In this document: positions 4,174 to 15,979 of the stretch, in pieces
Numbering within the stretch: position 1 is the stretch's first letter
Layout of the letters: every line of letters starts with the position of its first letter
NCBI GenBank assembly: GCA_903886485.1
Contig: CAISMH010000012.1
Coordinates: 62,001-126,000, forward strand
Direction of reading: 5' to 3'
DNA: 64,000 nt
Source of the DNA: an uncultured Burkholderiales bacterium
GTDB lineage: Bacteria > Pseudomonadota > Gammaproteobacteria > Burkholderiales > Burkholderiaceae_C
Made by a program: the position numbers and the translations under genes
The notes under the pieces: model-generated
Told to the model about the DNA's origin: nothing
What the model saw: only the letters and a program-made list of their open reading frames with translations
The model's database searches: none

Positions 4174-4191
4174 TAGTTGCGCACACAACCA
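4174..4191. promoter_or_regulatory. Upstream copy of the MarR-type operator
   Basis: TAGTTGCGCACACAACCA matches the perfect palindrome at 4206-4223 in 15 of 18 positions, including the whole left arm. The two copies start 32 bases apart, about three helical turns, so dimers on both would sit on the same face of the DNA. The regulator is probably the MarR protein encoded at 5271, which is an inference from proximity. Confidence 0.6.
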
Positions 4192-4205
4192 TTCTCGTAA
4201 ACACC

Positions 4206-4223
4206 TAGTTGCGCGCGCAACTA
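4206..4223. promoter_or_regulatory. Perfect 18-base palindromic operator, probably for the MarR regulator
   Basis: TAGTTGCGCGCGCAACTA is a perfect palindrome 56 bases before the start of the tctC gene. TTGC/GCAA arms of this size are typical of MarR-family sites. It lies in the 210-base region between ygiQ and tctC, where no convincing -35/-10 pair could be assigned. Confidence 0.7.
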
Positions 4224-4279
4224 CTTGGACACAATAACGCTTGATTTCACAACTCCAACTCCTTCAGCGAGATCCTTCT

Positions 4280-5257
4280 ATGTTGTCCATGAAACATTGC
4301 CTTCGTATGGCATTGACTGCCACTTTGGCCGTCACCAGCGCCCTCAGCGGCGCGCAAACTTACCCCAACCGTCCAATTGAGTGGGTGGTGCCCTATGCCC
4401 CAGGCGGCGGAACAGACACGGTGGCGCGTTCGCTGGGTCAAGCCATGGGCACGGTCCTAGGCCAAAGCGTGGTGATCGTCAACAAACCAGGTGCCGCGAC
4501 CAACATCGGCGCTGAGTACGTGGCACGCGCAAAACCCGATGGCTATGTGCTGATGTCTGCGGACACAGGCACCTTAGCGGCCAACCCTTTCATTTACAGC
4601 AAACTCAGCTACAACGTTGAAAAAGACTTTGCCCCTGTGGGTCTGACGGTGCGTTTCCCAATGATCTTGGTTGTCAACCCCAGCGTGCCTGCACAAAATT
4701 TGAAAGAGCTGATGGCTTGGGCAAAAACTCAAGCCAACGGCGTGAGCTACGCCACCCCTGGTGCTGGCAGCCCCCACCACCTCGCCACCGAGTTGTTCCG
4801 CGAGATGGCCGATGTGAACCTTTCGCACGTGCCCTATCGCGGCGCAGCGCCTGCCGTTCAAGACGTAGTTGCCGGTCAAGTTCCCATGATGTTTGTCGAC
4901 ACGGCCAGTGGCTACCAATTCATTACTTCGGGTAAGTTACGTCCCATTGGCGTTGCCAGTGCCAAACGTGTCAAGAACTTCGAAAACATTCCTACCCTCA
5001 GCGAGCAAGGTTTGAAAAACTTCGAGGCCTATGCTTGGCAAGGTTTGGTCGTTCCTGCGGGCACACCGGCCGAAGTCATCAACACCCTCAACCAAGCTTT
5101 GCTGGCTGCCCTCGCCACCACAGAAGTGAAAGCGCGCCTTCAGGTGTTGGGCCTTGAGGCCATTCCCAGCTCACCGAAACAAATGGCTGATTACGCAGCC
5201 AAGGAACGCGCCAAGTGGGGACCGATCATCAAGGCCAACAACATCAAAGCCGACTGA
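4280..5257 (+). CDS. TctC/Bug-family extracytoplasmic solute receptor
   Basis: A protein of 325 residues from the ATG at 4280; a TTG at 4241 would only add an unlikely leader. It has a basic start and hydrophobic signal peptide (ALTATLAVTSALSGAQ), then the hallmark Bug motif YPNRPIEWVVPYAPGGGTD and later VARAKPDGYVL and SHVPYRGAAPAVQDVVAGQV. These periplasmic receptors serve tripartite tricarboxylate transporters for carboxylates and aromatic acids. No tctA or tctB membrane gene is beside it, so it is an orphan receptor, as is common in Burkholderiales. Its place at the head of an aromatic-type operon suggests it captures the substrate or a related acid. The ligand is unknown. Confidence 0.9.
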   Translation: MLSMKHCLRMALTATLAVTSALSGAQTYPNRPIEWVVPYAPGGGTDTVARSLGQAMGTVLGQSVVIVNKPGAATNIGAEYVARAKPDGYVLMSADTGTLAANPFIYSKLSYNVEKDFAPVGLTVRFPMILVVNPSVPAQNLKELMAWAKTQANGVSYATPGAGSPHHLATELFREMADVNLSHVPYRGAAPAVQDVVAGQVPMMFVDTASGYQFITSGKLRPIGVASAKRVKNFENIPTLSEQGLKNFEAYAWQGLVVPAGTPAEVINTLNQALLAALATTEVKARLQVLGLEAIPSSPKQMADYAAKERAKWGPIIKANNIKAD

Positions 5258-5270
5258 GCCTGCGCCCAAC

Positions 5271-5705
5271 ATGACGACTCAACTAGATCGCACACTCACC
5301 TACCGTCTGCATCAACTCCACAAATTAACCGATGCGGACAGTCAGTCCAGTTACCCCGAGCGAACCGGTTTGTCGATGAGTGACGGGCGATGCCTCACCA
5401 CGGTCGGCACATTTGAACCCTTGTCCGTGAAAGAGTTGGCTGCGAAAGCCAACTTGAACAAAGGCCAAGCCAGTCGTGCTGCACAAGCCTTGGTCGACCA
5501 AGGGCTGGTCCTCAAAGCCGACCACCCCGGTGATGGCCGAGGTGTGGTGCTCACTTTGACGCCTGCAGGTCGCAAGGTCTTCAAACGCGCCATGGACATG
5601 GTGACCCAACGCAACGCACAAATCTTTGGCTGCTTGAGCGACAAAGAACGGACGACCTTGAGCGCCATGTTCGACCGACTGATCGCCCATGCTCGCCCAC
5701 GCTGA
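5271..5705 (+). CDS. MarR-family transcriptional regulator
   Basis: A protein of 144 residues starting at the ATG at 5271, 13 bases after the tctC stop. It has a winged helix-turn-helix with FEPLSVKELAAKANLNKGQASRAAQALVD (helix 3-4, about residues 49-76), then the wing KADHPGDGRGVVLTLTPAGR with the conserved Asp-Arg-Gly type turn and a C-terminal dimerisation helix. MarR proteins normally repress catabolic operons and are released by the substrate or its CoA ester. The two TAGTTGCGC palindromes upstream of tctC are the best candidate operators, which would make this an autoregulated operon repressor. Confidence 0.88.
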   Translation: MTTQLDRTLTYRLHQLHKLTDADSQSSYPERTGLSMSDGRCLTTVGTFEPLSVKELAAKANLNKGQASRAAQALVDQGLVLKADHPGDGRGVVLTLTPAGRKVFKRAMDMVTQRNAQIFGCLSDKERTTLSAMFDRLIAHARPR

Positions 5706-5729
5706 CACAGCTCCTCTTGAAATTCACAC

Positions 5730-7421
5730 ATGCACACGCCCACCACACAAGCACGCCCTTCGATTTATTACACCTACGAGGTGTTCAAACCTTGGTTGGC
5801 CTCCGAACATCCCAAACCCACCCGTCAACAAGTGGTGATCGTGGGCTCTGGCCCTGCAGGCATGGTGACCGCATTGGAACTGGCCCGCCACGGTGTGGCC
5901 AGCGTGGTGCTGTCCTCTGAACTGCAGTTCTCGCAGGGCAGCCGCGCCATTTGCTTCACACGGCGTTCGATGGAAATCTTGCAGCAAGTCGGCGTTGCGG
6001 ATCGCATGACCGAAGGTGGCTTGCCTTGGCGTTTCGGCAATTCGTATTACCGCGGCCAACGCGTGTTCCGCATGGAAGCCCCGCACGATGCCGATGACCG
6101 CTTTTTCCCCATCATCAATGTGCAGCAGCAGTTCATGGAGGAATACCTGCACGACGCCTGCAAAGCCAACCCCTTGATTGACTTTCGCTGGGGTAACAAA
6201 GTCAACAAAGTCGAACAAAAAGACGGCTACGCCGTGCTTGAGGTCGACACGCCAGAGGGCATCTATGCCCTAGAAAGCAACTGGGTCGTCGCCGCTGACG
6301 GTGGTCGATCCGGCATACGCACCGCCATGAATTTAGAAATGGAAGGCGCCTCTTACGAAGGCTTTTTCGTGATCGCCGACATCAAGGTCGACTTGCCCTT
6401 GCCCACCGAGCGCTTGGCCTATTTCGATCCTGACTGGAACCCGGGCAACACCATCTTGATGCACCGCGAGCCCCATGGCATTTGGCGCGTTGACTATCAA
6501 TTACCTGAGGGCGAAACACCTGAAGAAGCCTTGAAACCCGAATCGCTCAAAGCGCGCATTGATGCCCAACTCGCCATGATTGGACACGCCGGTGCGCCAT
6601 GGGAAATGGATTGGTCCTCGGTTTACTCCGCACGCACTCTGACCTTGCCAGAATTTGTGCATGGCAGTGTGATCTTCACGGGCGACGCCGCGCACTTGTT
6701 GCCCATCTTTGGTGTGCGCGGTGCCAACACCGCGTTCCAAGATGCGCAGTCTTTGGGTTGGCATTTGGCGTTTGTCGTCAAAGGCTTGGCAAGTCAAAAG
6801 CTCTTGACCAACCACAGCGCCGAGCGCGTGGGTGCAGCACGCGAAATCATCGATGAAGCGGGCAAGAGCACGCGCTTCATGGCGCCTCCGGCAGGTGGTT
6901 TTCAGTTGCTGCGCGATGCGGTCTTATCGCTCTCGCTCACACAAGCGTTCGTGCGCCCGCTCTACCACTGGCGCACCTCGCGTCCACACGCGTACACGCA
7001 TTCCATGCTCAACAGCATGGGCGACGACAACGGCTTGTTCAGGGCAGGCCCAGCCCACGGCGCACCCCCTCAAAACGTGCGTTTGGGCGCCAACGATTTC
7101 TTGCTCGATCATTTGGGCGGTGGCTTTGATTTGTTGTATTTCACAGATGCACCCGCCATCCCTGAATCCCTGCAGCACACCATCCAAGCGGCGCGTGCCA
7201 AAGGCATGCCCTTGCGTGTGATGGCTGTCGGCAGCGCGCTCCCCGTCGCTGGTGCGGACACCACCCTTGCCGATACCCATGGCCATCTGCGTGAGCGCTA
7301 CGGCGTGCCTGCCAACGGCGCTGCGTATTTGTTGCGCCCAGACCAACACATTTGCGCGCGCTGGCTCACGCTGGATGCCACGCGTCTGCAAGCAGCCTTC
7401 CACGCAGCATTGCCCCAGTAA
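5730..7421 (+). CDS. FAD-dependent aromatic hydroxylase (class A flavoprotein monooxygenase)
   Basis: A protein of 563 residues. The FAD fingerprint GSGPAG is at 39-44 after a 36-residue N-terminal extension. The DG motif (ADGGRSGIR) is at 189-197 and the GD motif (TGDAAHLLPIFGVRGAN) at 317-333. The last 170 residues form a thioredoxin-like C-terminal domain (FDLLYFTDAP ... YLLRPDQHICARW) as in phenol hydroxylase and MhpA, 3-(3-hydroxyphenyl)propionate hydroxylase. Such enzymes use NAD(P)H and O2 to add a hydroxyl to a phenolic ring. The substrate cannot be read from sequence. A downstream fumarylacetoacetase suggests the product is a para-hydroquinone such as a homogentisate or gentisate analogue. 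DUF2783 and VOC genes follow closely. Confidence 0.85.
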   Translation: MHTPTTQARPSIYYTYEVFKPWLASEHPKPTRQQVVIVGSGPAGMVTALELARHGVASVVLSSELQFSQGSRAICFTRRSMEILQQVGVADRMTEGGLPWRFGNSYYRGQRVFRMEAPHDADDRFFPIINVQQQFMEEYLHDACKANPLIDFRWGNKVNKVEQKDGYAVLEVDTPEGIYALESNWVVAADGGRSGIRTAMNLEMEGASYEGFFVIADIKVDLPLPTERLAYFDPDWNPGNTILMHREPHGIWRVDYQLPEGETPEEALKPESLKARIDAQLAMIGHAGAPWEMDWSSVYSARTLTLPEFVHGSVIFTGDAAHLLPIFGVRGANTAFQDAQSLGWHLAFVVKGLASQKLLTNHSAERVGAAREIIDEAGKSTRFMAPPAGGFQLLRDAVLSLSLTQAFVRPLYHWRTSRPHAYTHSMLNSMGDDNGLFRAGPAHGAPPQNVRLGANDFLLDHLGGGFDLLYFTDAPAIPESLQHTIQAARAKGMPLRVMAVGSALPVAGADTTLADTHGHLRERYGVPANGAAYLLRPDQHICARWLTLDATRLQAAFHAALPQ

Positions 7422-7430
7422 GGAGAAGAC

Positions 7431-7625
7431 ATGACCCATACCCCTAACGCTTTGACCATCCCCGATCTAGAAATCGTGTACGACAGCTTGGCCAACGCCA
7501 TTGATCAAGCAGGTGAAGAAAAATCTTCGCTATTTTTGGTCAAGCTCGCCCTGCTCAACGCCAACGCACTCGCCAATGCCGAGGTGTTCCAAACGCACGT
7601 GCAAGCCGCTTTGCAAGACCTTTGA
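7431..7625 (+). CDS. DUF2783 small protein
   Basis: A protein of 64 residues with a strong ribosome binding site (AAGGAGAAGAC) before the ATG at 7431, nine bases after the monooxygenase stop. The sequence is acidic and mostly helical (LEIVYDSLANAIDQAGEEKS, then LFLVKLALLNANALAN) with no Cys or His cluster and no signal peptide. It fits the DUF2783 family, which is typically found directly after FAD monooxygenases of this type. A small accessory or stability subunit of the hydroxylase is a plausible role, but no function is known. Confidence 0.75.
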   Translation: MTHTPNALTIPDLEIVYDSLANAIDQAGEEKSSLFLVKLALLNANALANAEVFQTHVQAALQDL

Positions 7626-7642
7626 TTCAATCAGGAACACAC

Positions 7643-8173
7643 ATGCTCGTTAAAAAAGTTCATCACGTGGCGTACCGCTGCATCGACGCCAAAGAAACCG
7701 TGGCGTGGTACGAAAAACACCTTGACATGAAATTTGTGCTGGCCATCGCAGAGGATGAAGTGCCATCCACCAAAGCCGCGGACCCTTACATGCACATTTT
7801 TTTAGATGCGGGTGGCGGCAACATCTTGGCCTTCTTCGAATTGCCCAGCCAACCGCCCATGGACCGCGATCGCAACACCCCTGCTTGGGTGCAACACTTG
7901 GCGCTCGAAGTTGATTCAGTGGAGACCTTGATAGCCACCCAAGCCAAGCTGGAAGCTGCTGGCATTGAAGTGGTCGGCCCCACCAACCACACCATCTTCA
8001 AGAGCATTTACTTTTTCGATCCCAACGGACACCGTTTGGAGTTAGCCGCCAACACGGGGACTCCCGAGATGATGCGCAAGCTCGACGAAGTCAAATGGGA
8101 CATGATCAACGAATGGGCGCAGACCAAGCGCGCACCCAAACACGCAGCATGGATGCACGATGGCAGCATGTAA
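7643..8173 (+). CDS. VOC (glyoxalase/extradiol dioxygenase-type) metalloprotein
   Basis: A protein of 176 residues from the ATG at 7643, preceded by CAGGAA. It has two beta-alpha-beta-beta-beta modules of the vicinal oxygen chelate fold. The likely metal ligands are His8 (VHHVAYR), His85 (VQHLALEV) and Glu133 (HRLELAAN), the 2-His-1-carboxylate set seen in type I extradiol dioxygenases and glyoxalases. The FFDPNGHRLELA segment is the classic VOC ending. A C-terminal helix of about 35 residues is extra. In this operon it is the only candidate for the ring-opening step between the hydroxylase and fumarylacetoacetase, but an isomerase or lyase role is equally compatible. Confidence 0.8.
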   Translation: MLVKKVHHVAYRCIDAKETVAWYEKHLDMKFVLAIAEDEVPSTKAADPYMHIFLDAGGGNILAFFELPSQPPMDRDRNTPAWVQHLALEVDSVETLIATQAKLEAAGIEVVGPTNHTIFKSIYFFDPNGHRLELAANTGTPEMMRKLDEVKWDMINEWAQTKRAPKHAAWMHDGSM

Positions 8174-9488
8174 CGAAACCCACAACCCCGCGCTGCGCAG
8201 TTGGGTCAGCTCGGCCAATACCGCCGCCTGTGATTTCCCCATTCAAAATTTGCCTTTTGGGGTCTTTCGTCGCAAGCGTTCAAACGAAGCGTTTCGCGGT
8301 GGCGTCGCCATTGGTGATCAAATTTTGGACTTAGCCGCAGCCGCCCAAACAGGTCTGTTCACAGGCGACGCCGCGACCGCCATGCAAGCCGGTGCGCAAG
8401 ACAAGCTCAACGCGTTGATGCGCATGGGACCACAGGCTTGGCACGCTTTGCGGTTGGCGCTTTCACATGCGTTGCGCGACAACGCCCCCGAACAAGCCAC
8501 CTTACAAAGCTGCTTGGTGCCACAAGCGCAAGCCGAATACGACGTGCCCGCGCGCATCGGTGACTACACCGATTTCTACACCTCGATTCACCACGCGACC
8601 AACATCGGCAAACAGTTCCGTCCAGACAACCCGTTGTTGCCCAACTACAAATGGGTACCGATCGGTTACCACGGTCGGGCCTCCAGCATTGGGGTGTCGG
8701 GTCAGGCCTTTCACCGTCCCGTGGGACAAACCATGCCACCTGGCGCGACCGAACCCTCATTCGGACCTTGCAAGCGGATGGACCTTGAGTTGGAGCTGGG
8801 CATCTTCATCGGCCGCGGCAACGCCCTGGGTGACGCCTTGACCATGGAGGAAGCCGAAGACCATGTATTTGGCATTTGCTTGCTCAATGATTGGTCTGCC
8901 CGTGACATCCAAGCTTGGGAATATCAGCCTTTAGGTCCGTTCTTATCCAAGAATTTTGCGTCCACCATTTCGCCTTGGGTTGTGACCTTGGAGGCCCTCG
9001 CTCCGTATCGCGTGCCCTTCAAGCGCGCCGCAGAAGACATCCAACCCATGGCCTATCTGGACTCAGAGGCCAACCGTCAGCAAGGTGCATTGGATATCCA
9101 ACTCCAAGTTGGCATCCACACGCCCAAGATGCGCGAGGCAGGCGAGCCCGCAGCCATCGTGTGCAACACCAGCTACCGTCACGCTTATTGGACCGTGGCG
9201 CAAATGGTGACGCACCACACCGTGAATGGCTGCAATTTGCAAGCGGGTGATTTCTTAGGCAGTGGCACTTTGTCTGGCCCCACCTTGGACCAAGCTGGTG
9301 CCTTGATTGAACTCACCCAAGGTGGCAAACCCCCCCTGCAATTCGCCAATGGTGAGCAACGTGTTTACTTAGAAGATGGCGATACCGTGGTACTGCGCGG
9401 CTGGTGCGAAAAAACAGGTGCGACACGCATCGGTTTTGGCGAGTGTGTGGGCACGGTATTGCCCGCGAAGCCACACCAATCAATCTGA
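8160..9488 (+). CDS. fahA: Fumarylacetoacetase
   Basis: A protein of 442 residues, full length for the two-domain enzyme that hydrolyses fumarylacetoacetate to fumarate and acetoacetate. The N-terminal domain opens with LRSWVSSAN and FPIQNLPFGVF. The metal site is complete by comparison with mouse FAH: Asp138 (DYTDFY), Glu210 and Glu212 (DLELELGIF) and Asp244 (LNDWSARDIQ). Catalytic His145 (HHATNIG) and Lys264 (SKNFAST) are also present. It starts inside the VOC gene (14-base overlap), indicating coupled translation. Its stop overlaps the convergent murI by nine bases. No homogentisate dioxygenase or maleylacetoacetate isomerase gene lies next to it. Confidence 0.95.
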   Translation: MAACNETHNPALRSWVSSANTAACDFPIQNLPFGVFRRKRSNEAFRGGVAIGDQILDLAAAAQTGLFTGDAATAMQAGAQDKLNALMRMGPQAWHALRLALSHALRDNAPEQATLQSCLVPQAQAEYDVPARIGDYTDFYTSIHHATNIGKQFRPDNPLLPNYKWVPIGYHGRASSIGVSGQAFHRPVGQTMPPGATEPSFGPCKRMDLELELGIFIGRGNALGDALTMEEAEDHVFGICLLNDWSARDIQAWEYQPLGPFLSKNFASTISPWVVTLEALAPYRVPFKRAAEDIQPMAYLDSEANRQQGALDIQLQVGIHTPKMREAGEPAAIVCNTSYRHAYWTVAQMVTHHTVNGCNLQAGDFLGSGTLSGPTLDQAGALIELTQGGKPPLQFANGEQRVYLEDGDTVVLRGWCEKTGATRIGFGECVGTVLPAKPHQSI

Positions 9489-10310
9489 CGTCAGCGCTTC
9501 AACCTGTGCGGTGGCGCCCCAAAGGTGCGTCACCGCAAGCTGCGCTTGAGCCACATCCCCTGTGGTGAAAAACTTGACAGAACCCAGCGCTGTTTGAGTG
9601 GTCAAACTGCCGTTGTCGGCCAAGCGCCGTGTCAGCTCGCGCGCCACCGCCTCGGCTGGGTCAAGCAAGGTCACCCGCTCGCCTGCGATGCGCGCAAGGG
9701 TGTCACGCAAGAAAGGGTAATGCGTACAACCCAGCACCAAGGTGTCTGCCCCCTGCTCTAGCAGCGGCGTGATGAACTGCCTCAGCAAGGCCTCGGTTTC
9801 TGCGCTGTGCAAATCGGCACGTTCGACTTGCTCGACCCAGCCGGGGCAAGCTTGCAGCAAGATGCGTTTGTCAGCCCCATACAGTGCCACCAGTCTCGCG
9901 ACCGCCGCACTGTGAACAGTTTGGCGCGTCGCCAACACACCCACCACCCCGCTGCGCGTGAGTGCCACTGCGGGTTTGATGGCGGGCTCTATGGCCACGA
10001 CAGGCAAATGCGTTTGTTCCCGCAAGGTTTTGGCAGCCACCACCGTGGCTGTGTTGCACGCAATCGTGATGGCTTTGACACCCTGCTCGGCCAGCCAGTT
10101 GCCCACAGTAAGTGTGCGTTGGGTGATGTGCGCTTCAGATTGGTCACCATAAGGCGCATGGCCCGAATCGGCCACATACACCAAATGCTCATGCGGCAGC
10201 GCCGCGCGGATGGCGCGCAAGACAGACAGGCCGCCCACGCCGGAGTCAAAGACGCCGATGGCGCCTTGAAGCTGCTTTGCGGTGGTGGCTGATGCGATGG
10301 GCTGGGACAT
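9480..10310 (-). CDS. murI: Glutamate racemase
   Basis: A protein of 276 residues from the ATG at 10310; a longer frame begins at 10358, but MSQPIAS is the natural start. It interconverts L- and D-glutamate for peptidoglycan. The two catalytic cysteines are Cys85 (ITIACNTATV) and Cys195 (LVLGCTHYPF), with the FDSGVGGLSVL substrate loop at 21-31 and ADSGHAPYGD at 48-56. It is monocistronic here, divergent from hexR across 127 bases and overlapping the end of fahA by nine bases. Confidence 0.96.
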   Translation of the reverse strand: MSQPIASATTAKQLQGAIGVFDSGVGGLSVLRAIRAALPHEHLVYVADSGHAPYGDQSEAHITQRTLTVGNWLAEQGVKAITIACNTATVVAAKTLREQTHLPVVAIEPAIKPAVALTRSGVVGVLATRQTVHSAAVARLVALYGADKRILLQACPGWVEQVERADLHSAETEALLRQFITPLLEQGADTLVLGCTHYPFLRDTLARIAGERVTLLDPAEAVARELTRRLADNGSLTTQTALGSVKFFTTGDVAQAQLAVTHLWGATAQVEALTSD

Positions 10311-10413
10311 GGTCCGAATGTGCAAAACTGGGTTTTCGTAAAAGAAGAATTTGCACATTCTCGCCGACTGAAAATGGCCGCCACATGAAGATGTAACCCG
10401 ACTGGATAATGCA

Positions 10414-10428
10414 TGAAACTAAGTTACA
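10414..10428. promoter_or_regulatory. Likely HexR operator upstream of hexR
   Basis: TGAAACTAAGTTACA is an imperfect palindrome (six of seven pairs) and agrees with the published gamma/betaproteobacterial HexR consensus TGTARTTWWAYTACA at 12 of 15 positions. It ends nine bases before the hexR ATG and begins four bases after a possible -10 box GATAAT (10405-10410), so it would cover the transcription start and repress. A further TGTAAC half site lies at 10392-10397. Binding is inferred. Confidence 0.6.
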
Positions 10429-10437
10429 TTAACAACC

Positions 10438-11286
10438 ATGCTGGAACGTATCAAATCAAGCCTTTCATCCTTAGCCCCCGCGGAGCAGCGCGTGGGCAAG
10501 CTGCTTCTCACTGACCCACGCACTTTCTCAACCCTACCCGTCACCGAGTTGGCGGATCGCGCAGGCGTCAGCAAACCCACGGTGGTGCGCTTTTGCCGCA
10601 GCATGGGTTACGAAGGCTTGAGTGATTTCAAACTCAAACTCGCAGGCAGCCTCAGCGAGGGGGTGCCGTTCATCCACCGCAACGTGGGCGCGCAAGACAA
10701 CAGCAATGATGTGCTGGTCAAGGTGATTGACAACACGGTGACGGCATTTTTGAAGTACCGCAACGATGCCTCTTCTGCGCAAATTGACAAGGCCGCAGAA
10801 GCCATCGCTCTCACGCATAAAAAAGGCAAACGCCTTGAGTTTTTTGGCGTGGGCAACTCAGGCATCGTGGCGCAAGATGCGCAACACAAATTTTTCCGCT
10901 TGGGTTTTCACACCATCGCGCACAGCGATGGCCACCTGCAAATCATGAGCGCCTCCTTGCTCGGCCCTGGCGACTGCTTGGTGGTGTTCTCAAACTCGGG
11001 CCGCACCCGCGATTTGCTCGACTCCTGCGAAATCGCCAAAAAGAACGGTGCGACCACCGTGGTGGTCACGGCCTCTGGCTCGCCATTGGCCAACGCCGGA
11101 AAAATCCACCTCGCCGCAGATCACCCCGAGAGCTACGAAAAATTCAGTCCCATGGTGTCACGCTTGCTGCATCTGATGATCGTGGACGTATTGGCCACCA
11201 CCGTGGCACTGCGCATCGGCAGTGCGCAGTTGCAACCCCTGCTGCGCAACATGAAACAAAACCTTCTCAACAAACGTTACTCATGA
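10438..11286 (+). CDS. hexR: RpiR-family regulator HexR
   Basis: A protein of 282 residues with an N-terminal RpiR helix-turn-helix (residues 1-77, containing VTELADRAGVSKPTVVRFCR) and a SIS sugar-phosphate-binding domain (about 120-255, with FFGVGNSGIVAQDAQHKFFR and VVFSNSGRTRDLLDS). HexR represses Entner-Doudoroff and related genes and is released by 2-keto-3-deoxy-6-phosphogluconate. Its position at the head of zwf-pgl-edd-eda-pgi supports the name over other RpiR proteins. The stop overlaps the zwf start (ATGA), so the repressor is produced from the operon it probably controls. Confidence 0.92.
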   Translation: MLERIKSSLSSLAPAEQRVGKLLLTDPRTFSTLPVTELADRAGVSKPTVVRFCRSMGYEGLSDFKLKLAGSLSEGVPFIHRNVGAQDNSNDVLVKVIDNTVTAFLKYRNDASSAQIDKAAEAIALTHKKGKRLEFFGVGNSGIVAQDAQHKFFRLGFHTIAHSDGHLQIMSASLLGPGDCLVVFSNSGRTRDLLDSCEIAKKNGATTVVVTASGSPLANAGKIHLAADHPESYEKFSPMVSRLLHLMIVDVLATTVALRIGSAQLQPLLRNMKQNLLNKRYS

Positions 11287-12749
11287 CACACACCACCCCA
11301 CCCGCGGGCACGCTGGACATCGTGATTTTTGGCGGCGCTGGCGACTTGTCGTTTCGCAAACTTTTGCCCGCGCTCTACATGGCGCACCTGCATGACAAGC
11401 TTGACGCCACAACACGCATCATTGCCGTGGGCAGACAAGACTGGACACGCCAAGCGTATTTAGACTTCATCGACAAGAACTCGCCCGCCTTCATTGAGCA
11501 AGACGCTTTCACAGCCGATGATTGGAAAAGTTTTTTAAACCGATTGGCCTATGTGAGCATGGATGTGACCAACGCCCATGACTTTGCCAAACTCAAAGAG
11601 CTGTGCAACACGCCCGCCTTGCGTGTGTACTACTTGGCCACAGCACCGAGCTTGTTCAGCCAAATTTGCGCCCATTTATCGGGCGCTGGTTTGGTCGATG
11701 CGCAATCACGGGTGGTGCTTGAAAAACCACTGGGCACCGACCTTGCCTCTGCACGCGACATCAATGTGAATGTGGCCCGTTACTTTGACGAGCCACAGAT
11801 TTATCGCATCGACCACTACCTCGGCAAAGAGACGGTGCAAAACCTGATGGTGTTGCGTTTTGGCAATGCGATTTTCGAACCGCTGTGGCGTGCGCCCTAC
11901 ATCAAGAGCGTGCAAATCACCGTGGCCGAGAGCGTGGGCGTGGGCAGTCGGGCTGGTTTTTATGATGGCGCGGGAGCCATGCGCGACATGGTGCAAAACC
12001 ACCTGTTGCAGCTCTTGTGCATTGTGGCGATGGAGCCGCCTATCTCCTTGGGTGCGGACGATGTGCGTGATGAAAAACTCAAAGTCTTGCGCTCCTTGCG
12101 CAAGATGGATTTGAGCGACATCAAACGTGACACCGTGCGCGGCCAATACACCGCTGGCGCTTCAGAAGGCGCTGCTGTCAAAGGCTATTTGGATGAAGAC
12201 AATGTGCCCGCCAACAGCCGCACCGAAACTTTCGTGGCCTTGCGCGCGCACATCAACAACGCACGCTGGGCCCATGTGCCCCTTTTCTTGCGCACGGGCA
12301 AACGCATGCAGCGCCGCGAATCGCAAATCATCATCGAGTTTGCAGACCAACCGTTTTCTATCTTTGGCTCCACGGCACAACAAGAACCCAACCGACTCAT
12401 CATCACCTTGCAACCCGAAGAATCCATTCAGTTGGAGATGATGGTCAAAGAGCCGGGCACGGGCATGAACTTGCATCCGGTGAAACTCGGCCTTGACTTG
12501 CAACAGTCGTCCGACAAACGTCGCGCCGAAGCCTATGAGCGTTTGCTGATGGACGTCATCAAAGGACGCCTCACCCACTTCATGCGTCGTGACGAATTGG
12601 AAGCCGCATGGATGTGGGTCGAGCCCATCATCAACGGCTGGGCTGAGTTAGACGACAAACCACGCGCTTACTCTGCGGGTAGCTGGGGCCCTGCCGCTTC
12701 GTCGGCCTTGATGGCGCGCGAAGAGTTGTCATGGTTTGAGGAAGCCTGA
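11283..12749 (+). CDS. zwf: Glucose-6-phosphate 1-dehydrogenase
   Basis: A protein of 488 residues, the usual size. It oxidises glucose 6-phosphate to 6-phosphogluconolactone with NADP or NAD. The dinucleotide motif is GGAGDLSFRK (17-26), a variant of the usual GASGDLA-RK. EKPLG is at 147-151 and the active-site stretch RIDHYLGKE at 175-183, with catalytic His178 region intact. FLRTGKRM near residue 340 binds substrate. It overlaps hexR by four bases and shares one base with pgl, so the three are translationally linked. Confidence 0.97.
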   Translation: MTHTTPPAGTLDIVIFGGAGDLSFRKLLPALYMAHLHDKLDATTRIIAVGRQDWTRQAYLDFIDKNSPAFIEQDAFTADDWKSFLNRLAYVSMDVTNAHDFAKLKELCNTPALRVYYLATAPSLFSQICAHLSGAGLVDAQSRVVLEKPLGTDLASARDINVNVARYFDEPQIYRIDHYLGKETVQNLMVLRFGNAIFEPLWRAPYIKSVQITVAESVGVGSRAGFYDGAGAMRDMVQNHLLQLLCIVAMEPPISLGADDVRDEKLKVLRSLRKMDLSDIKRDTVRGQYTAGASEGAAVKGYLDEDNVPANSRTETFVALRAHINNARWAHVPLFLRTGKRMQRRESQIIIEFADQPFSIFGSTAQQEPNRLIITLQPEESIQLEMMVKEPGTGMNLHPVKLGLDLQQSSDKRRAEAYERLLMDVIKGRLTHFMRRDELEAAWMWVEPIINGWAELDDKPRAYSAGSWGPAASSALMAREELSWFEEA

Positions 12750-13492
12750 TGGGCAACACGTGGCTACCCGAATCACGCGGCACCTTGACGGTGCACACCG
12801 TCAGCCAAGCCGAGCTGAATGTGCGTTTGGCGCAAGACATGGCCCAGCGTTTGGCTGAGGCCATTCAAGCGCGCGGGTTCGCCGTGTTGAGTGTGTCCGG
12901 TGGCAGATCGCCTGTGGCCTTGTTTGAGGCCTTGCGCGTGATGGACATCGATTGGTCGCGTGTGCGCATCACCTTGGTGGATGAACGTTGCGTACCACGC
13001 CTTCACCCCGACAGCAACGCCCTGTTGGTGCAGACCCATTTATTGCAAAACTTGGCAGCCAAAGCGCAATTGGTGTTCATGGTGCCCCGTGCGACCGAGC
13101 CTTTGGAATCTCCCACCACCTTGGCCCAAGCAGCAAGCATGGCCCTGAGTGCAGCAGGCACAGCAGATGTGTTGGTCTTGGGCATGGGTGCAGATGGTCA
13201 CACGGCGTCGTTGTTTCCTGATGCACCCAACTTGGCAGAGGCGCTTGATTTACGCAACACGAAAAGCTGTGTGGCCATTGAACTGAAGAGCCCACCGCCC
13301 AATGCCCCCTATGCACGCATCACGCAAACCTTGGCGCAAATTTTGTCGGCACGCCACATCGTATTGCCCGTGACGGGCGCTGACAAACGGCTCACTTTGC
13401 AGCAGGCGTGGACAGCCGCCACACCCGCGCTCCCCATTTCATTTGTCTTGCACCAAACCCAAACGCCCGTCGCGGTTTGGCTTTCAAACTGA
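12749..13492 (+). CDS. pgl: 6-phosphogluconolactonase
   Basis: A protein of 247 residues of the NagB/DevB-type family. It hydrolyses 6-phosphogluconolactone to 6-phosphogluconate. Conserved pieces are LSVSGGRSPVALFEAL (about 47-62), ITLVDERCVP with the acidic active-site residues, and VLGMGADGHTASLFP (about 146-160). The start codon shares its A with the last base of the zwf stop (TGATG), a strong sign of coupling. The edd gene follows after six bases. Confidence 0.95.
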   Translation: MGNTWLPESRGTLTVHTVSQAELNVRLAQDMAQRLAEAIQARGFAVLSVSGGRSPVALFEALRVMDIDWSRVRITLVDERCVPRLHPDSNALLVQTHLLQNLAAKAQLVFMVPRATEPLESPTTLAQAASMALSAAGTADVLVLGMGADGHTASLFPDAPNLAEALDLRNTKSCVAIELKSPPPNAPYARITQTLAQILSARHIVLPVTGADKRLTLQQAWTAATPALPISFVLHQTQTPVAVWLSN

Positions 13493-13498
13493 TCAACC

Positions 13499-15322
13499 AT
13501 GACCACACCTTTGCACCCCACCCTTGCGGCTGTCACTGCGCGCATTGAACAACGCAGCGCCATAACGCGCCAAGCTTATTTAGACGTGTTGGCCCAAGCC
13601 AAAAAGCCTGGCCCGTACCGCGGTGGCATGGGCTGCGCCAATGCCGCGCATGCTTATGCGGCCATGCCTGCCAATGACAAGCTGGTGTTGCGCCAAGAGC
13701 GTCAGCCCAACGTCGGCATCATCACCGCGTACAACGACATGCTCTCGGCCCATCAGCCGTATGAGCACTACCCCGAAAAAATTCGTGCGGCTGCACGTGC
13801 CGCAGGTGCCACCGCACAAGTGGCGGGTGGCGTGCCCGCCATGTGCGACGGCGTGACCCAAGGCGAAGACGGCATGGAGTTGTCGCTGTTCTCGCGCGAT
13901 GTGATTGCTTTGGCCACCGCGGTGGGTTTGTCGCACAACGTGTTTGATGCCGCTTTGTTCTTGGGCGTGTGCGACAAGATCGTGCCCGGCCTCTTCATCG
14001 GCGCCTTGCAGTTTGGGCACTTGCCTGCTGTGTTTGTGCCCGCTGGCCCCATGACCTCGGGTTTGTCCAATGACGACAAAGCCAAAGTGCGTCAGCAGTA
14101 CGCACAAGGCTTGGTCAGTCGCGACGTGCTGTTAGAGGCCGAACAAGCGGCCTACCACAGCGCAGGCACCTGCACGTTTTATGGCACGGCCAACTCCAAC
14201 CAAATGCTCATGGAAATCATGGGCTTGCACTTGCCCGGTTCCTCGTTCGTCAACCCCGGCACACCGCTGCGTGACGCCCTCACCGTGGAAGCGGTGAAAC
14301 GTGCCGTGGCCTTGTCACAAGACACAGACGCGGGGATGGGCTACCAAATCAATGCCAAGGCCATCGTCAACGGCATCGTGGGTTTGCTCGCCACAGGCGG
14401 CTCGACCAACCACACCTTGCACATCGTCGCCATGGCGCGTGCCGCAGGCCTGATCGTCAATTGGGACGACTTCTCTGACCTCTCGGCCTGCGTGCCTTTG
14501 CTGGCCCGCGTGTACCCCAATGGCAGCGCCGATGTGAACCACTTCCAAGCCGCAGGTGGCATGGGCTACTTGATTGCGCAATTACTCAGCGCAGGTTTGT
14601 TGCATGACGATGTGCAGACCCTCATGGGCCAAGGCCTGCACCGCTACACGGTGGAGCCTTGGTTGAACATGGGGCAACTCGATTGGCGTGATGTGCCAGT
14701 GAAGTCTGCCGACGAAGCTGTTTTGCGCCCTGTGACACATCCTTTCAGCGCCGATGGCGGCTTGCGTTTGCTACAAGGCAACTTGGGCCGTGCGGTGGTG
14801 AAAGTGTCAGCCGTCAAGCCCGAACACCGCCAAGTGCGCGCACCTGCCATCGTGTTGACCGATCAAAAGCAGCTCGGCCAACTCTTCAAAGAAGGCAAGC
14901 TCGAACGCGACTTCGTGGCCGTGGTGCGCAACCAAGGCCCCCAAGCCAACGGCATGCCCGAGCTGCACCGCCTCACCCCCGTGCTGGGCGTGTTGCAAGA
15001 CAAAGGTTTCAAAGTGGCCTTGGTCACCGATGGCCGCATGTCAGGGGCCTCGGGCAAAGTGCCTGCGGCGATTCACCTCAGCCCCGAATCTGTCAATGGC
15101 GGCTTGATTGGCAAGGTGCAAGACGGCGACATGATTGCGCTAGATTGCGACACCCAAACCTTGCAACTCGAAGTCAGCGAGGCCGAACTTGCCACTCGCA
15201 CCGCCCCCACGCCTGACTTGTCTGGCAACCAACACGGCACTGGCCGCGACCTCTTTGCCCTGTTTCGCGCCAACGCGGCACTGGCCGAAGAAGGTGCATC
15301 GCCTTTGTTCACACACCGCTAA
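13499..15322 (+). CDS. edd: Phosphogluconate dehydratase
   Basis: A protein of 607 residues, standard for Edd of the IlvD/Edd family. It dehydrates 6-phosphogluconate to 2-keto-3-deoxy-6-phosphogluconate (KDPG). The iron-sulfur cluster cysteines appear as Cys116 ([20 protein letters not shown]) and Cys158 ([11 protein letters not shown]), with a third in the [16 protein letters not shown] region (about 221-236). The C-terminal [19 protein letters not shown] motif is present. It is the committed enzyme of the ED route and sits between pgl and eda in the HexR-headed cluster. Confidence 0.97.
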
Positions 15323-15334
15323 AGCAAATTCGAC

Positions 15335-15979
15335 ATGACCCAACTCAACCCCGCCTTCACACGCCCCGCTTTCAAATCACGCGTGGTCCCCGTCATCGTC
15401 ATCACCCATCCGGACCAAGCCGTGCCCATGGCACACGCGCTGCTCGAAGGCGGTGTGGATGTGATGGAAATCACCTTGCGCCACGCCGCAGGTTTGTCCG
15501 CGATTGAACAAGTCGCCAAGCATGTGCCGCAGATGCACGTGGGGGCAGGCACCGTCACACGTGCCGACGAGATGGCCCGCGTGCAAGCCGCAGGCGCGCG
15601 CTTTGCCCTCTCGCCCGGCATGACCGATGCATTGGTGCAAGCCGCTGTGGCTTGCAAGCTGCCCTTCATGCCCGGTGTGATGACGCCCGGTGAAGTGATG
15701 GCGGCGCGTGACCACGGATTTGGTTTGGTCAAACTCTTTCCCGCCGCACAAGCAGGCGGCTTGGCCATGCTCAAGGCCTTGGGCGGGCCATTGGGCGATA
15801 TGCGTTTTTGTCCGACGGGCGGTGTGTCGCTGGCCAACATGGGCGATTTTTTGAAACAACCCAATGTGGCGATGGTTGGCGGCTCTTGGCTCACCCCTGT
15901 GGAGGCTGTCGAGCGCGGAGACTGGGCTGAAATCACTCGCCTCGCACGCGAAGCCACAGACGCGGCAGGTTTAAGTTAA
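15335..15979 (+). CDS. eda: KDPG aldolase (2-dehydro-3-deoxy-phosphogluconate aldolase)
   Basis: A protein of 214 residues, a single TIM barrel. It cleaves KDPG to pyruvate and glyceraldehyde 3-phosphate. Catalytic Glu45 and Arg49 are in MEITLRH, the Schiff-base Lys133 in GLVKLFPA, and the phosphate loop in PTGGVSLANM. The gene begins 12 bases after edd. A 70-base gap before pgi holds a weak hairpin with ATGGGTT/AGCCCAT arms at about 16009-16028 but no T-run, so readthrough into pgi is expected. Confidence 0.96.
   Translation: MTQLNPAFTRPAFKSRVVPVIVITHPDQAVPMAHALLEGGVDVMEITLRHAAGLSAIEQVAKHVPQMHVGAGTVTRADEMARVQAAGARFALSPGMTDALVQAAVACKLPFMPGVMTPGEVMAARDHGFGLVKLFPAAQAGGLAMLKALGGPLGDMRFCPTGGVSLANMGDFLKQPNVAMVGGSWLTPVEAVERGDWAEITRLAREATDAAGLS

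Follow-up and report, generated by a model that had tools for sequence, protein, structure and literature searches.

The para-hydroquinone homogentisate is where the substrate of fumarylacetoacetase (Fah) normally comes from, and its cleavage by homogentisate dioxygenase, usually the cupin protein HmgA, is a textbook step in the breakdown of tyrosine and hydroxyphenylacetate. Which enzyme, then, opens the ring where an operon encodes Fah and no HmgA? The question is raised by a six-gene cluster of an uncultured Burkholderiales bacterium (Burkholderiaceae_C; GenBank assembly GCA_903886485.1), found in a stretch of 64,000 nucleotides of contig CAISMH010000012.1 (positions 62,001–126,000). This whole stretch is called the window, and coordinates refer to it unless marked otherwise. 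The six genes lie on the + strand at 4280–9488, with spacings of 13, 24, 9 and 17 bases followed by a 14-base overlap, as given in a preliminary description of the locus. Judging from sequence comparison, this MarR-linked cluster would degrade 3-hydroxyphenylacetate via homogentisate, with a VOC-fold protein opening the ring instead of HmgA, a reading to which a probability of about 0.78 is assigned.

The VOC-fold protein (176 amino acids, 7643..8173, + strand) is placed by Pfam and NCBIfam in the glyoxalase superfamily and is predicted here to be a homogentisate 1,2-dioxygenase. Over nearly its whole length it is 62–64% identical to a crystallised Acinetobacter protein, PDB code 9u42, titled homogentisate 1,2-dioxygenase, and the similarity in sequence and fold is high throughout the protein and includes the metal triad and the extradiol motif. 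A 2-His-1-Glu metal triad and the type I extradiol motif are markers of this dioxygenase type. The metal ligands H8, H85 and E133, described earlier as intact, are invariant in all 56 aligned proteins, together with H116 and Y123, which we take to correspond to the His and Tyr that act in catalysis in catechol 2,3-dioxygenase; the extradiol motif is present in 71 of 71 cases. The structure predicted from the 56-row alignment has a pLDDT (predicted local distance difference test) score of 92.4, while a prediction from the single sequence reached 43.5 and was discarded. The protein would bind Fe(II) through H8, H85 and E133 and, in the manner of a type I extradiol dioxygenase, open homogentisate to give maleylacetoacetate, thereby replacing the cupin HmgA.

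The FAD aromatic hydroxylase (563 amino acids, 5730..7421, + strand) belongs to the FAD_binding_3 family (PF01494, 187.7 bits) and the PRK08132 subfamily (NF006002, 564.3 bits, cut-off 416) according to Pfam and NCBIfam. It is followed by a small protein of 64 amino acids (7431..7625, + strand), MhaB-like by size and place, and the pair stands beside homogentisate genes. According to one study (PMC3053370), MhaA (566 amino acids) and the coupling protein MhaB (60 amino acids) of Pseudomonas putida U turn 3-hydroxyphenylacetate into homogentisate and are highly specific for this acid, and BxeA2727 and BxeA2726 adjoin hmgABC in Paraburkholderia xenovorans LB400. The mhaAB-hmgABC systems of these two organisms thus share with the window a hydroxylase of ~560 residues, a partner of ~60 residues, a ring-cleaving enzyme and a fumarylacetoacetate hydrolase, the genes for which adjoin one another in LB400. 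They differ in that the ring is cleaved by the cupin HmgA and not by a VOC protein, and in that the LB400 cluster includes the isomerase gene hmgC, whereas the isomerase gene is unlinked in the window genome. By size, family and neighbours the hydroxylase pair is likely MhaAB-like, and it would make homogentisate from 3-hydroxyphenylacetate. In the route proposed by the preliminary description, a phenolic acid, left unnamed, becomes a para-hydroquinone by hydroxylation, the VOC protein opens its ring and Fah hydrolyses the product; the identity to 9u42, the MhaAB-like layout and the place of homogentisate upstream of Fah favour this route, for which 3-hydroxyphenylacetate is now the likely substrate and homogentisate the likely intermediate.

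Fumarylacetoacetase (442 amino acids, 8160..9488, + strand) scores 553.6 bits against TIGR01266 (cut-off 375.3), also matches solved fumarylacetoacetate hydrolases and would finish the route. Neither HmgA nor an isomerase is encoded within the operon, and this earlier observation extends to the whole genome (2.49 Mb, completeness score 100%) for HmgA but not for the isomerase. No match to HmgA (TIGR01015) over the curated cut-off is found in the genome, and hence no separate complete hmg locus. A genome devoid of any isomerase was considered and dropped, as MaiA (TIGR01262) is present at C12:338136-338765 with a match of 269.8 bits (cut-off 171.05). Its actual job may be that of a maleylpyruvate isomerase, because a gentisate-dioxygenase-like cupin adjoins it (253.4 bits, below the model cut-off of 442.1). 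Isomerisation to fumarylacetoacetate could be performed in trans by this MaiA, or by glutathione alone. An operon lacking the isomerase is in itself unremarkable, since hmgAB without a linked hmgC has been reported in several bacteria, including Ralstonia, Bordetella and Cupriavidus (PMC3053370). The same genome segment (C12:333000-344000) carries a second TctC gene beside MaiA and the cupin, forming a separate gentisate-type locus, and genes nearby resemble propionyl-CoA carboxylase by eye.

The operon begins with a TctC-type solute receptor (325 amino acids, 4280..5257, + strand; PF03401, 227.8 bits, cut-off 27), which may bind the incoming phenolic acid, and a MarR regulator (144 amino acids, 5271..5705, + strand; PF01047, 44.3 bits, cut-off 24.6). 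The twin operators noted earlier upstream of these genes are present as two operator-like palindromes, TAGTTGCGCACACAAC at 4174..4189 and TAGTTGCGCGCGCAACTA at 4206..4223, at which MarR may act. They stand 32 bases apart, and the motif recurs with identical spacing upstream of related operons (loci L010, L019 and L031). Within the window they rise weakly above chance, with three matches at up to two mismatches against 1.2 expected and nine of 100 shuffles reaching three, so support for them comes from conservation across loci. The motif RGTTGN6CAACY occurs in 13 of 18 loci having this MarR (match of at least 130 bits) versus seven of 143 other loci, eight own-genome fragments being excluded from the comparison, and one of these seven, L019, lies on a contig with merely a partial MarR match.

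The same operon type exists with the other enzyme. Among four loci picked for the closeness of HmgA and the hydroxylase (L163–L166), all of which carry MarR relatives 59–71% identical to that of the window beside HmgA, three (L163, L165 and L166) also contain TctC relatives (67–70% identity), a hydroxylase (41–42%), the cupin HmgA and Fah; L164 has MarR, hydroxylase and HmgA and no TctC or Fah match. The three resemble the window in their related MarR, TctC and Fah and in the operator motif, which recurs in their intergenic or start regions and not in L164. They differ in the distant hydroxylase, in gene order and in the presence of HmgA for the VOC protein. The synteny comparison proposed in the preliminary description yields related MarR/TctC operons that hold HmgA where the window holds the VOC gene. 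Three Rhodobacterales plasmids (L152–L154) are likewise similar to the window in that the hydroxylase and a small DUF2783 protein adjoin homogentisate genes, namely an annotated hmgA and, in L152 and L153, fahA. Their arrangement differs, being an MBL-fold hydrolase, hydroxylase and DUF2783 protein with the cupin HmgA and no VOC match in the stretch. The MBL-fold hydrolase is linked to the hydroxylase in L003, L112–L114, L116 and L117 as well as in L152–L154, and the window lacks it.

The neighbourhoods of VOC relatives were examined in the 80 genome loci holding the best 80 of 595 relatives, and in others. Open reading frames were tiled with guidance from third-position GC content (GC3), replacing a procedure that chose wrong-strand frames in GC-rich loci; as this tiling still missed the VOC frame in 18 of 89 loci, most statements on neighbours use tblastn and refer in GC-rich loci to matches rather than gene models. 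Contig ends truncate many of the loci. The VOC gene is found beside HPPD, hydroxylases, and Fah or a short FAA hydrolase with MaiA. An Ideonella plasmid has the order hppD-VOC-fahA (VOC 66% identical), and an Acinetobacter baumannii plasmid, carrying a counterpart of 9u42 that is 60% identical to the window protein, has fahA-maiA-VOC with hppD close by. On two further Acinetobacter plasmids, fahA-maiA-VOC stands close to a hydroxylase gene (55% identity) with a small gene after it. VOC is accompanied in these Acinetobacter stretches by maiA together with hppD or with a hydroxylase, while the window operon has MarR and TctC and no maiA, and its genome contains no HPPD (TIGR01263) over the cut-off of 277, the best match being 82.2 bits. 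An Enterobacter plasmid typed as conjugative IncFII (L002) carries VOC, an MFS transporter, an FAA hydrolase and maiA, flanked on either side by transposase genes, and may hold a mobile homogentisate module.

In a tree of 124 loci, HPPD (150 bits) lies within 4 kb of VOC in 17 and a hydroxylase (90 bits) in 53, with neither in 54, the last including L101, L103 and L105, where the short stretches cut HPPD. The two contexts interleave, with at least nine changes over 71 labelled rows in this quick tree of many weak forks, and homogentisate is one intermediate common to both. A short FAA hydrolase is accompanied by MaiA at a distance of up to 7 kb in 31 of 35 rows, and full-length Fah in eight of 49; each hydrolase type appears to have its own kind of cluster. 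Genes resembling valS and galU by eye lie beside a distant VOC clade (about 41–49% identity) in L124, L127, L128 and L129, and in L125 a hydroxylase and a DUF2783 protein stand in between; this clade may represent a second group of homogentisate dioxygenases.

The distribution of the two enzymes was determined across 250 genomes sampled evenly from the family, with close VOC defined by a best E value of 1e-70 or better (60–100% identity) and distant VOC by 1e-48 to 1e-15 (42–52% among the printed identities); the HmgA count leaves out genome G598, with a 34-position fragment as its sole HmgA match, and includes G472, in which HmgA is split. Close VOC is present in 112 genomes, distant VOC in 65 more, HmgA in 99 and HPPD in 204. 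Close or distant VOC occurs in 108 of the 112 HPPD genomes without HmgA and in 50 of the 92 with it, and p-values for this association overstate the case because the genomes are related. The picture is cleaner in a sample of the class, where close VOC occurs in eight genomes from beyond the family: HmgA is absent from all eight, and HPPD is present in seven, in six of them not more than 3 kb from VOC. At the level of gene places in the family (150 hydroxylase, 120 close VOC and 105 HmgA places listed, a few small HmgA fragments excluded, distances from start to start), the hydroxylase has VOC alone nearby in 44 of its 150 places, HmgA alone in 30, both in eight and neither in 68.

Several observations weigh against the proposed assignment. 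PDB entry 9u42 was solved with Zn, and its title is the sole evidence of activity seen for it. The cupin HmgA lies within 6 kb of 15 of the 120 listed close VOC genes, which also speaks against a simple swap, and is present in eight of 31 genomes (seven over the cut-off and one split) forming a subset of those behind the best 80 of 595 VOC loci. Among loci fetched because VOC and HmgA lay close, L112, L113, L114 and L116 contain IclR, the MBL-fold hydrolase, VOC, hydroxylase, HmgA and Fah, L117 has the same set with no Fah match, and L115 has VOC, HmgA and Fah. Differing oxygen or iron demand, substrate range, or a replacement caught midway may account for keeping both enzymes; strict mutual exclusion of the two was dropped in view of these loci and of the 15 VOC genes near HmgA. 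In the family sample 41 HPPD genomes have neither HmgA nor close VOC, 37 of them with distant VOC, and 13 of the 124 tree loci show no HPPD, hydroxylase, HmgA, hydrolase or MaiA near VOC. Hydroxylases at least 60% identical to that of the window lack a close VOC within 6 kb in 23 of 30 listed places, the window's own place being counted among the 30; L155 and L157, for example, hold near relatives of the hydroxylase with Fah and without VOC. Neither sampled congener (G448 and G550) carries the VOC or the hydroxylase gene at the thresholds applied, which makes the operon an accessory one in the genus. The 64-residue protein scores 13.8 bits (E 0.048) against DUF2783 (PF10932), below the gathering cut-off of 25 bits, which four of six small proteins of related clusters pass (L003, L125, L153 and L154) and two fail (L005 and L149). 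The DUF2783 label given to it earlier is not retained, and because the cut-off is missed the protein is called DUF2783-like or MhaB-like. Finally, 3-hydroxyphenylacetate is probably the substrate on the grounds of protein size and gene layout.

It is at this last point that a different reading of the hydroxylase comes in. The VOC protein could also be a homogentisate dioxygenase fed from another acid, such as 4-hydroxyphenylacetate attacked at C-1, or 2-hydroxyphenylacetate. Among solved structures, phmmer ranks PnpA, a para-attacking phenol hydroxylase, as the best relative of the window hydroxylase (E 6.6e-36). In Pseudomonas acidovorans and Azoarcus evansii, 4-hydroxyphenylacetate is reported to enter the homogentisate route through hydroxylation at its carbon 1 (PMC3053370). 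However, a hydroxylase of ~560 residues with a small partner is the layout of MhaAB, described there as highly specific for 3-hydroxyphenylacetate, and in Cupriavidus pinatubonensis 2-hydroxyphenylacetate is reported to be handled by a P450 (PMC8449657), which makes another acid unlikely as the substrate.

Two readings of the VOC protein itself are far less probable. Were it an accessory protein of homogentisate pathways (an isomerase, hydrolase or protective protein), its occurrence near HmgA would be expected, and so would the rarity of MaiA in rows with full-length Fah; Fonseca et al. (PMC7646211) suggest that the product of the Acinetobacter gene lacks dioxygenase activity. This view is at odds with the extradiol motif, with the title of 9u42 and with the fact that HmgA was found neither in the window genome nor in any of the eight class-sample genomes. 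It also leaves ring cleavage to be assigned in L005, L006 and L046, where VOC, Fah and MaiA stand together and no HmgA is seen, and we consider it very doubtful. Gentisate is a para-hydroquinone too, with isomerase and hydrolase logic in common, and it could be served by the VOC genes of those rows (22 of 124) in which MaiA and a short FAA hydrolase lie nearby and neither HPPD nor a hydroxylase is seen. That the window protein cleaves such a different para-hydroquinone, with Fah acting on the matching product, is nevertheless hardly probable, as Fah is a clear fumarylacetoacetase by its TIGR01266 score, a gentisate-dioxygenase-like cupin is encoded separately in the genome, next to MaiA, and close VOC relatives adjoin HPPD, the product of which is homogentisate. 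Homogentisate cleavage by the VOC protein, with 3-hydroxyphenylacetate as the source, is the reading retained.

Directly downstream of Fah, on the opposite strand and with a 9-base overlap, is a glutamate-racemase-like gene, followed by a run resembling hexR-zwf-pgl-edd-eda of the Entner-Doudoroff pathway (9480–15979, genes named by eye from translations).

The A. baumannii papers treat the VOC gene unclearly. Fonseca et al. describe it as a distant HmgA homologue, suggested to be without dioxygenase activity (PMC7646211), while another paper takes a 633-base interval as its hmgA reference (PMC11945678), and 633 bases is the length of maiA in the A. baumannii plasmid stretch examined. In the work of Zhao et al., pyomelanin is reported to go along with an insertion in a gene named hmgA and to be abolished by a plasmid copy of it; they state an 11-base target duplication and print nine letters (PMC9431530). 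The reverse complement of these letters occurs within the hmg region of L006 (A. baumannii plasmid, + strand) solely in the VOC gene, with one more copy outside that region, and the letters read forward have no match. We infer that the hmgA of Zhao et al. is the VOC gene, L006 coming from a different strain. Given their insertion and complementation results, inactivity of the Acinetobacter VOC protein was not adopted.

The VOC-type homogentisate dioxygenase is not new as an enzyme type, since it is already in the PDB. No paper on it or on 9u42 was found by title or beginning of abstract in the open-access literature, outside which most subscription journals lie, and one may exist. Its spread and its exchange with HmgA in equivalent operons look less known. 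To these the present case contributes figures on the spread, along with the operon type and the sites of its regulator.

It appears reasonably probable that in Burkholderiaceae an unrelated VOC-fold enzyme has repeatedly displaced the cupin HmgA as homogentisate dioxygenase in MarR/TctC-linked operons that are otherwise equivalent, and that it now occurs in at least as many genomes of the family (112 versus 99 of 250 sampled), under the name of glyoxalase in databases. If this is true family-wide, many pathway gaps in annotated genomes would close together, proteins named lactoylglutathione lyase, glyoxalase or VOC would gain a function, and the brown-pigment phenotypes of Acinetobacter would gain a clear gene. 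It would also provide a clean case of one reaction for which two unrelated folds trade places within one operon type.

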